Source of the DNA: an uncultured Litoreibacter sp. | GTDB taxonomy: Bacteria; Pseudomonadota; Alphaproteobacteria; Rhodobacterales; Rhodobacteraceae | DNA length: 64,000 nucleotides | Assembly (NCBI GenBank): GCA_947494645.1 | Contig: CANLVO010000001.1 | Coordinates: 558,001 to 622,000 of the forward strand | Direction: 5' to 3' | Position numbers and translations under genes: made by a program | Notes under the pieces: model-generated | The model's database searches: none | What the model was told of the DNA's origin: nothing | Seen by the model: only the letters and a program-made list of their open reading frames with translations | Part shown: in pieces, positions 19,121-60,642 of the stretch | Numbering within the stretch: the first letter of the stretch is position 1 | How the letters are laid out: each line of letters starts with the position of its first letter

Positions 19121-19588
19121 ATGCGCTGTCCGTTTTGTGGAAATGTAGACACTCAGGTAAAGGACTCACGTCCGGCCGAGGACCATGTAGCCATCAGAAG
19201 ACGTCGGTTTTGCCCGGCCTGTGGTGGTCGGTTTACAACGTATGAACGGGTCCAACTGCGCGATCTGGTGGTAATCAAGACTTCCGGCAAGCGTGAGGAT
19301 TTTGACCGCGACAAACTGGAGCGTTCAATCCGTATTTCGATGCAAAAACGTCCGATTGATCCTGAACGTATCGATCAGATGATCTCGGGCATCGTACGTC
19401 GGCTGGAAAGCATGGGAGAGACAGACGTCCCCTCGACATCCATCGGTGAGATTGTGATGGAGGCACTGGCACGTATCGACACGGTCGCCTATGTCCGGTT
19501 CGCATCCGTATACAAAAACTTCCAGGCGGCTGATGATTTCGAGGAATTCGTCTCGGAACTGCGCCCGCCGGTCTCCAAAGAAGATTGA
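19121..19588 (+). CDS. nrdR: Transcriptional repressor NrdR
   Basis: 155 residues from the ATG at 19121, which starts the conserved MRCPFCG; an in-frame start at 19100 would add seven residues not seen in the family. The zinc ribbon has C3, C6, C31 and C34, and the ATP-cone domain follows from about 45 ([20 protein letters not shown]). NrdR senses dATP/ATP and represses nrd operons at paired NrdR boxes. It is followed after 4 bp by ribD, a common alphaproteobacterial pairing. Confidence 0.97.
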
Positions 19589-58412: not shown

Positions 58413-59510
58413 ATGACCCCGACACATGAGCAGATCCTAGCCGCCCTGAGCAGTTTGGGCCTGCCCGACGGCGGAAATCTCGTCTCGCACGACATGATCC
58501 GGGCCTTGTCAGTCGACGGTGGCGCTGTGAGATTCGTCATCGAGGTTTCACCTGAGCAAGCTCCGAAGTTCTCAGGCGTCCGCGATGCAGCACAAGCCAT
58601 TGTCAGTCGTCTCGAGGGCGTCGAGAGCGTCTCTGCCGTTCTGACCGCGCATGGGCCTGCTGCAAAACCTGCGGCCCCACCGCCCAACTTGGGCACCGGC
58701 GCCAAGCCCGCGCTAAAAATTGGCGGCCACCCGACACCGCAGGCCGAGGCGACAAAACCCTCCGGCGTTGATCGCATCGTTGCGATTGCCTCAGGCAAGG
58801 GTGGGGTGGGCAAATCGACCCTGTCTTCTAACCTCGCGGTCGCGCTCGCCAAGCAAGGCCGCAAGGTGGGGTTGCTGGACGCCGATATATATGGGCCCTC
58901 CCAGCCGCGCATGATGGGCGTCTCGGACCGACCCAAATCACCAGACGGCAAAACCATCATCCCGCTTACCGCACATGGCGTTACGATGATGAGCATCGGG
59001 TTGATGATGGACCCAGACAAAGCTGTCGTCTGGCGCGGACCTATGTTGATGGGTGCTCTGCAACAAATGATGGGGCAGGTTGAATGGGGCGAGTTGGACA
59101 TTCTGCTGGTCGACTTGCCGCCTGGCACGGGCGACGTGCAGCTGACGCTTTGCACCAAAACACAGATGACCGGAGCGATTGTGGTCTCTACGCCGCAGGA
59201 CGTGGCCCTTCTGGACGCGCGCAAGGCGCTCGATATGTTCAAGACGCTACATACGCCCGTTCTCGGCCTCGTTGAAAACATGTCCCACTATATATGTCCG
59301 ACCTGCGGCACCGAGGCGCATATCTTTGGCCATGGCGGCGTTGCCGCAGAGGCTGAGAAGCTTGGCCTGCCATTCCTCGGGGAGATCCCGCTAGAGCTGG
59401 ATATCCGGCTGGCGGCAGATAGCGGCACGCCGATCGCGGCGGGGCAGGGTGCGGTGTCCGAGGCCTATAGCGTGTTGGCCAAACGACTTATCGACGGCGG
59501 AATGGCGTAA
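58413..59510 (+). CDS. apbC: Mrp/NBP35 family iron-sulphur carrier ATPase
   Basis: 365 residues. The N-terminal MIP18-like domain (about 1-80) is followed by a Pro/Ala linker and a P-loop ATPase domain with [11 protein letters not shown] near 126-136. [15 protein letters not shown] is the deviant Walker A/switch region, and [12 protein letters not shown] follows. The two-Cys motif YICPTCG, the Fe-S ligand of Mrp homodimers, is near the C-terminus. ApbC loads [4Fe-4S] clusters to target proteins. The ATG at 58413 opens the family start MTPTHEQIL. Confidence 0.95.
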
Positions 59511-59600: not shown

Positions 59601-59609
59601 TGTGGATAA
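59601..59609 (-). promoter_or_regulatory. Perfect DnaA box upstream of mraZ (first)
   Basis: TGTGGATAA at 59601-59609, the exact complement of TTATCCACA, 91 bp after apbC. A second perfect box follows at 59733-59741 in the opposite orientation. Two exact matches in one spacer are unlikely by chance. Confidence 0.6.
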
Positions 59610-59619
59610 CTTGATCTGC

Positions 59620-59649
59620 GAATCAAAATGACTCAAAACATGGTGATTC
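59620..59649. promoter_or_regulatory. Three GANTC (CcrM) sites upstream of mraZ
   Basis: GAATC at 59620-59624, GACTC at 59630-59634 and GATTC at 59645-59649 fall within 30 bp. The first two are exactly 10 bp apart. As at rpoD, this suggests methylation-linked control of the cluster. Confidence 0.6.
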
Positions 59650-59692
59650 GTTGGGCTGGGATGGGCCGAGGCCGCGAAATTCCCGACTAAGC

Positions 59693-59717
59693 CGGGAAAA
59701 TCTGGGACTTTATGGGA
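59693..59717 (+). promoter_or_regulatory. MraZ-box array, plus orientation
   Basis: CGGGA (59693), TGGGA (59703) and TGGGA (59713) start exactly 10 bp apart, with 5-base AT-rich spacers. MraZ operators in other bacteria are TGGGN repeats separated by 5 bases, so this matches the known site shape in the direction of mraZ transcription. Confidence 0.75.
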
Positions 59718-59732
59718 AATCGTGTAAAAAAG

Positions 59733-59741
59733 TTATCCACA
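59733..59741 (+). promoter_or_regulatory. Perfect DnaA box upstream of mraZ (second)
   Basis: TTATCCACA at 59733-59741, 16 bases after the plus-oriented MraZ repeats and 68 bases before the reverse array, so it is in the middle of the regulatory region. Confidence 0.65.
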
Positions 59742-59809
59742 ATATCTAGTGGTTCATGGAGTGGCTGACCGCAACCACGGCCACAAACTGTCTCGCTTAC
59801 AGCATGATG

Positions 59810-59864
59810 TCCCATTGATCCCCATCAAAGCCCATAAATTTCCATTGCTTCCCATATTTCCCCG
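59810..59864 (-). promoter_or_regulatory. MraZ-box array, reverse orientation
   Basis: TCCCA (59810), CCCCA (59820), GCCCA (59830), TTCCA (59840) and TCCCA (59850) follow at exact 10-bp steps, with CCCCG at 59860. Each is the complement of TGGGN (one is TGGAA), and all spacers are 5 bases. The exact 10-bp period over at least five units is strong evidence for a multimeric DNA-binding protein such as MraZ. Confidence 0.78.
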
Positions 59865-60082
59865 TGGCACAACAGTTCCACGATGAGGACGGGCTAAAAA
59901 ACAAGGGGCAGCTAAGAACCCCAAAGGCGACCGAAAAGGTTTCATACAGGCGCCCATTCACATCGAACGACGACGGCCCCTGCGCGAGCAGACATCCCCC
60001 CAGGTGGCGCGGGACCGTCCTTCCCCAAGCGGGAAACATACGGCGAGTTGATCAGTGGCAGCAGATCAACTCGCCGTTTTTA
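59865..60082 (+). ncRNA. UpsM-like small RNA from the extended mraZ leader
   Basis: Between the reverse MraZ array and mraZ is about 220 bp of non-coding sequence ending in a strong intrinsic terminator 48 bp before the mraZ start. Rhodobacter sphaeroides makes the abundant sRNA UpsM by premature termination in an uncommonly long mraZ leader; its size is about 200 nt. The layout here agrees. The 5' end given is a guess, because no clear promoter is visible. The nominal 83-codon frame beginning at GTG 59864 is not judged a gene. Confidence 0.7.
60041..60081 (+). terminator. Strong intrinsic terminator in the mraZ leader
   Basis: Perfect 13-bp inverted repeat: CGGCGAGTTGATC at 60041-60053 and GATCAACTCGCCG at 60064-60076, with a 10-base loop and TTTTT after it. 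It ends 48 bases before the mraZ start codon, so readthrough of it sets how much of the division cluster is transcribed from the leader promoter. Confidence 0.92.
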
Positions 60083-60129
60083 GTTCAAAGAAATCTGGGC
60101 GGGAGACGGACATAAGGGGTCACTTACAC

Positions 60130-60642
60130 GTGGCACAACGGTTCAGAGGCGAAAGCGTCCACAAGGTGGACAGCAAGGGCAGGGTGTCTATCCCGGCCCT
60201 CTTTCGCCGTGTGCTTGAGGCCGCTGACCCCGACTGGACCGACGGATTGCAGCCCAACGTGGTGGTGGTCTACGGCGGCGCAAACCAAAAATACCTGGAA
60301 TGCTATACGGTGAAGGCCATCGAAGAGGTCGATGCCAAGATATCGGCCCTGCCACGCGGCTCAAAACGCCGCCGCGCACTCGAGCGCATCTTTAATGGTC
60401 AATCCCTGCCCACGCAGACCGATGATACTGGACGCTTGGTGTTGCCCGCGCAGTTGCGCGAGAAAATCGGCATCAGCGATAAAGCCTATTTCACCGCTTC
60501 CGGCGACACGTTCCAGATCTGGGCGCCCGATGCGTTCGAGGCGCGTGATGCCGATCTTGAGGAATTCGTCGCCATGGAAGGTGAGGATTTCGACCCGCTC
60601 ACTTGGCTTGATGACGACCCGTTCGGGTCCGCAGGGGAGTAG
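60130..60642 (+). CDS. mraZ: Transcriptional regulator MraZ
   Basis: 170 residues from a GTG at 60130; an ATG-less upstream extension to 60055 overlaps the terminator and is rejected. Both SpoVT/AbrB-like swapped-hairpin domains are present: [20 protein letters not shown] at the start and [18 protein letters not shown] around 95-112. MraZ assembles into rings and represses its own dcw operon by binding repeated TGGGN sites; two such arrays lie upstream. It is first of mraZ-rsmH-ftsL-ftsI-murE. Confidence 0.96.

Follow-up and report, generated by a model that had tools for sequence, protein, structure and literature searches.

Bacterial division has to keep step with DNA synthesis, and the region that precedes the division cluster of an uncultured Litoreibacter sp. 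raises the question of which regulators may act there and how their sites are arranged around the promoter. The stretch of DNA under study (the window) comprises 64,000 nucleotides and contains mraZ, the first gene of the dcw cluster, on the + strand (60130..60642, from a GTG start at 60130 to the stop at 60642), its upstream region being bounded by mrp (58413-59510). MraZ is a ring-shaped protein, and a first-pass annotation of this sequence had described two opposed arrays of MraZ boxes upstream of its gene, suggesting that two rings could loop the promoter or act on both strands. Our analysis supports this interpretation in part: the arrays are present, they are not equivalent, and between them lies a third element which had been overlooked, a palindrome (59737-59752) resembling the sites of NrdR, a sensor of the supply of DNA building blocks that responds to ATP/dATP. 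Judged from sequence, the three elements probably constitute a composite MraZ and NrdR operator of the UpsM-dcw promoter. The genome encodes both mraZ and nrdR, and the latter, the predicted regulator of the palindrome, was identified by a family match within the window (19121..19558, + strand).

Regions compared

A set of 77 regions was obtained from 80 loci by removing four with less than 600 bp of upstream sequence (L012, L023, L034 and L062) and adding the window to the remaining 76. It was extended to 98 regions with 21 of 29 further loci of the family (L159-L187), the eight omitted being seven without a usable reverse-core match and the window's own locus (L183); L188 was excluded, being a further match within the gene of L167. 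Outside the family, 47 genomes had a match and 30 loci from 30 families were examined. The held-out set consisted of 29 new loci, ten of which failed the reverse-core threshold, leaving 19 to be scored. All these regions share ancestry, and the counts given below are counts of related loci.

Two opposed arrays of predicted MraZ boxes

The predicted forward array (F1, 59693..59717, + strand) has three units, starting at 59693 (CGGGA), 59703 (TGGGA) and 59713 (TGGGA), and the reverse array (59810..59864, - strand) has six, at 59810 (TCCCA), 59820 (CCCCA), 59830 (GCCCA), 59840 (TTCCA), 59850 (TCCCA) and 59860 (CCCCG). The 10-bp period, the 5-base spacers and the 92-bp gap between the arrays (59718-59809) are all as first described; both arrays resemble MraZ boxes, and the opposed layout recurs in most of the Rhodobacteraceae regions examined. 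When the 619-bp mrp-mraZ region was shuffled with its dinucleotides preserved, the score of the six reverse units was reached in 0 of 1000 shuffles and that of the three forward units in 5 of 1000, and the forward array is therefore convincing mainly through its conservation. Pairs of TGGG on the + strand of the 77 upstream regions show a marked peak at a lag of 10 (97 versus 2.1 in shuffles), with smaller ones at 9 and 19 (28 and 33), and on the - strand 23, 27 and 19 pairs are found at lags of 10, 20 and 30, as compared with less than 1 in shuffles.

The DnaA box reported between the arrays does exist (TTATCCACA, 59733-59741, overlapping the palindrome) but is not a conserved element. As a conserved feature, control by DnaA through this site was rejected, since among 81 regions scanned TTATCCACA occurs there only in the window and in L001; single DnaA boxes lie elsewhere in a few of the others.

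The reverse array and the putative UpsM-dcw promoter

In the alignment of the 77 regions, each column of the TTG at 59845-59847 is conserved in 97-100% of the sequences; next come CCAT (59852-59855), TCCCAT (59860-59865) and, less strictly, ATCCCT (59869-59874), so that the conserved units of the reverse core are those at 59850, 59860 and 59870. The window itself has lost the third of these core units and has gained units upstream. Column conservation in these 77 sequences points to the TTG as part of a putative -35 element (59845..59850, + strand), followed after a 17-bp spacer by a candidate -10 element (59868..59873, + strand), with transcription probably starting near 59880. This promoter is deduced from conservation, a simple scan for a sigma-70 consensus promoter having returned none. 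Given the conserved TTG and the reverse units at 59850, 59860 and 59870, the reverse array would therefore cover the core promoter.

Downstream of the proposed start, the stretch 59880-60088 has a fold z of -4.25 and contains, upstream of mraZ, a strong terminator hairpin (60040-60077, + strand) followed by a T run, which is absent from the list produced by a simple terminator scan; no known RNA family matched the region near curated level. The mraZ leader would thus be long and have a terminator inside it, like the UpsM leader of R. sphaeroides, which likewise has a distal promoter and which, according to the accessible part of that report, starts 268 nt upstream of mraZ and yields a 206-nt RNA ending at the internal terminator (PMC5089854; the accessible follow-up work is PMC8307010). 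The leader expected from the putative start would measure about 250 nt and the terminated UpsM-like RNA about 203 nt (59880..60082, + strand, ends approximate), near the published 268 and 206. The terms 'binding site' and 'repeat' do not occur in the main text of the R. sphaeroides study as accessible (PMC5089854).

A general and a family-specific array

The distribution of the two arrays differs markedly. Upstream of mraZ, 29 of the 30 loci from other alphaproteobacterial families have a reverse pair, and one of these 29 also has a forward pair (0.57 expected); when the rule is tightened to three units or to three perfect ones, the figures are 26/30 for the reverse and 0/30 for the forward orientation. 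Within Rhodobacteraceae, 87 of the 98 regions have a forward pair 60-350 bp upstream of the -35 element (7.2 expected from shuffles), at 128-160 bp in 74 of them, and only 5 have a reverse pair in that same stretch. The held-out loci behave alike, with a forward pair in 17/19 and a reverse pair in 0/19. Hence, as far as sequence comparison can tell, the reverse array, placed on the putative promoter, is the MraZ operator usual among Alphaproteobacteria, and the forward array is a Rhodobacteraceae addition. The first-pass annotation had proposed to challenge its reading by looking for the reverse array in close relatives; this was aimed at the wrong array, because the reverse one is widespread and it is the forward one that is specific to the family.

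The features found here, namely TGGGN-type repeats with a 10-bp period, on or beside the dcw promoter and conserved together with mraZ, are those of MraZ operators, and binding of MraZ is predicted. The operator of E. coli MG1655 (L219) likewise consists of TGGGN direct repeats with 5-base spacers and a 10-bp period just upstream of mraZ; however, it is a single forward array, whereas the window has a reversed array at the promoter, supplemented by a forward array and an NrdR-type box. Those of Burkholderia cenocepacia and of Mollicutes share direct repeats at or near a 10-bp pitch at the dcw promoter, but the accessible text of these reports describes a single repeat series for each and mentions neither an opposed array nor an NrdR box (PMC7761207, PMC8475190, PMC5282649). 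As a separate observation, the MraZ array is thus in forward orientation in E. coli MG1655 and reversed in 29 of the 30 alphaproteobacterial loci of other families (L189-L218).

Spacing and helical phase

Among the 77 regions examined, 58 have a forward pair 10-40 bp from the palindrome; in 53 of these, the palindrome follows the start of the pair's second unit by 24-27 bp. The distance from the palindrome to the -35 element clusters at about 100, 110 and 121 bp, that is, in steps near one helical turn. For all matches to the NrdR matrix described below, the distances from box centre to TTG in the 98 regions peak at 27-28, 57-58, 90, 100, 110-111 and 120-123 bp, with a minor peak at 5; 108 of the 135 matches fall at the main positions, and 78 regions have at least one there. 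Some relatives seem to have two tandem pairs of boxes, at 121/90 and at 57/27. When the strongest match at 80-140 bp was taken from each of 81 regions, the resultant length was 0.82 at a period of 10.5 bp, the maximum being broad. These clustered positions were fixed after the 98-region scan had been seen, and fresh loci to check them were provided by the held-out set alone: there, 30 of 34 NrdR matches fall at the same positions, and 2 of the 19 loci have no match.

The window, L001 and L002 have a distance of 100 bp and the other Litoreibacter loci scanned one of about 110. On a tree of rsmH plus mraZ comprising 97 of the 98 regions (one was too short), the binned classes 100, 110 and 121 changed at least 7 times, a count which omits 7 loci whose distance is about 90 bp and 3 with other distances and which becomes 15 when the 90 and other classes are included; the tree was built with a quick method, 31 of its 94 inner branches are open and its loci are related, so that it offers a partial remedy for shared ancestry. 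Such stepwise clustering is what a DNA loop or a same-face contact would need.

These regularities bear on the strongest competing explanation, according to which only the reverse array works as a MraZ operator, the forward array and the palindrome making no contact with the promoter complex and acting upstream on their own account, for another regulator or as two separate inputs. It is indeed the reverse array alone that characterises the other families examined (29 of 30 loci), and among the 98 Rhodobacteraceae regions the proximal forward pair is missing in 24 and an NrdR match of any kind in 12. Nevertheless, an independent function would hardly account for the near-fixed spacing between forward array and palindrome, or for the clustering of the distances from this block to the promoter at helical steps, and we regard it as rather unlikely.

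The palindrome as an NrdR-type box

The palindrome reads CCACAATATCTAGTGG in the window (59737..59752, no strand assigned), and its family form is CWAYATNTDGTG. In 66 of the 77 regions it stands at one of the main distances, and these regions served for its sequence logo. A like palindrome lies upstream of a reductase gene, found through PF02867 and which we take to be nrdJ, with the reductase class that this name implies, in 21 Rhodobacteraceae genomes (20 regions of about 29 listed, plus the genome under study). In this set (L108 and L139-L158) the operator combines a strong box, CCACWAnATnTAGTGG, with a weaker one, nTACGYCAnWTTGTGn, 31-32 bp upstream in 18/21.

A matrix trained on these nrdJ promoters selects the palindrome as the best match in 65 of the 77 dcw regions, with a mean score of 13.8 bits as against 1.8 (sd 3.3) in shuffles; 64 regions score above the 95th percentile of the shuffles and 54 above the 99th. 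The first palindrome searches were seeded from an existing NrdR consensus, and the seed consensus of the nrdJ matrix postdates inspection of both the dcw and the nrdJ palindromes, so that the matrix is independent in its training letters and not in its seed. At a threshold of at least 5 bits, the 98 regions contain 135 matches where 13 were expected, and these are clustered; 20 regions have no match at any of the clustered positions. By comparison, rsmH coding stretches of the same size gave 4 matches in 77 loci. When offsets within 12 bp of the palindrome are set aside, the inverted weak-partner matrix, averaged over the same 66 regions, reaches its maximum at +31 (-7.3 versus a baseline of -17.0, sd 2.8); this partner is a property of the family average, the window having a single NrdR match.

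Considering the matrix score, the weak partner at +31 and the rsmH control, we therefore call the palindrome an NrdR-type box, at which NrdR may bind and exert control. What it shares with the box pairs of ribonucleotide reductase promoters is the palindrome itself; it differs in that it precedes the division cluster and adjoins a MraZ array, and in that, on the family average, the order of strong and weak box is inverted. That the palindrome is instead the site of another regulator with a similar motif is improbable: the seeding described above speaks for it, but the nrdJ matrix picks the palindrome in 65/77 regions, and the weak partner at 31 bp is shared on average. Still less credible is the proposal that the forward array and the palindrome belong to a second, upstream dcw promoter, which agrees with their position about 100-160 bp upstream of the putative -35 but not with the lack of any conserved -35 before the palindrome, for which reason its role as a -10 element was also rejected, nor with R. 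sphaeroides, where the UpsM start is the sole one reported in the accessible text of a study not aimed at far-upstream sites (PMC5089854).

In the genome under study, the strict palindrome pattern is not enriched (16 occurrences versus 13 for the reversed-pattern control), and the one-mismatch TGGG pattern occurs 26 times versus 14 in its reversed control; neither a genome-wide NrdR regulon nor a MraZ one is claimed. As for the other reductase gene, matched by PF02867 at C1:71299, its box is only weak (11/16). In other alphaproteobacterial families, NrdR-like matches of any kind were found in 5 of 29 loci; those upstream of the reverse MraZ array in L216 (18.3 bits) and L197 (three matches) are such that the link between NrdR and dcw may extend beyond Rhodobacteraceae.

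A proposed composite operator that may link division to deoxynucleotide supply

In the composite operator that we favour, MraZ bound to the reverse array, over the spacer and the -10 region, would block RNA polymerase, so that MraZ would autorepress the division genes along with the UpsM leader. The second and opposed array F1 would have been added upstream in Rhodobacteraceae, next to the NrdR-type palindrome, the two forming a block of near-fixed inner spacing that is helix-phased to the promoter. NrdR loaded with ATP/dATP would bind the palindrome and, with MraZ at F1, strengthen repression through a short DNA loop or a same-face contact, and dcw expression would in this way track deoxynucleotide supply. 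The sites, their conservation, orientation and spacing and their likeness to the nrdJ-promoter boxes are established from the sequences, and they suggest that expression of the division genes may be adjusted to the supply of nucleotides; the promoter elements, the start site, occupancy by MraZ and NrdR, the sign of regulation and the loop enter the scheme as proposals. More tentatively, and with odds that we place somewhat against it, a single nucleoprotein complex of MraZ, bound to both opposed arrays, and NrdR, bound to phased boxes, might loop or wrap the dcw promoter in Rhodobacteraceae. The division cluster and the UpsM RNA would then respond directly to the dATP/ATP ratio, which would constitute a deoxynucleotide checkpoint on division at the level of transcription.

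If the composite operator is real, an NrdR site at the division cluster would represent a direct transcriptional link between division and DNA synthesis. The opposed arrays also offer a natural system for studying how the MraZ ring engages multiple arrays. The MraZ octamer is mentioned in the accessible text of two reports (PMC7761207, PMC5282649). In the accessible open-licence literature we found no description of an NrdR site in the control region of a division cluster; a survey of proteobacterial regulons places NrdR under deoxyribonucleotide biosynthesis, and the accessible main text mentions neither mraZ, nrdJ nor cell division (PMC5343134).

Further sites upstream of the forward array

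Distal forward arrays with up to 11 [CT]GGG units lie 175-520 bp upstream of the -35 element in several relatives (L069, L057, L055, L048, L035 and L061). They were found by allowing steps of 9-11 bp, and steps of 9 and 10 alternate in 55 of 62 successive step pairs; arrays of at least 4 units occur in 17/98 regions, as against 0.1 in shuffled sequence, and in none on the opposite strand. Their helical phase was weak (resultant 0.34 at 10.5 bp) and was set aside. A further TGGG-type pair of the window, upstream of F1 (59652..59666, + strand), is possibly a remnant of such a distal array.

Upstream of F1, the window also contains three GANTC (CcrM-type) sites within 30 bp (59620-59649), and another perfect DnaA box, at 59601-59609 on the - strand, which has counterparts in 11 of 15 Litoreibacter-titled loci and in L056, L073 and L080 (Sulfitobacter).
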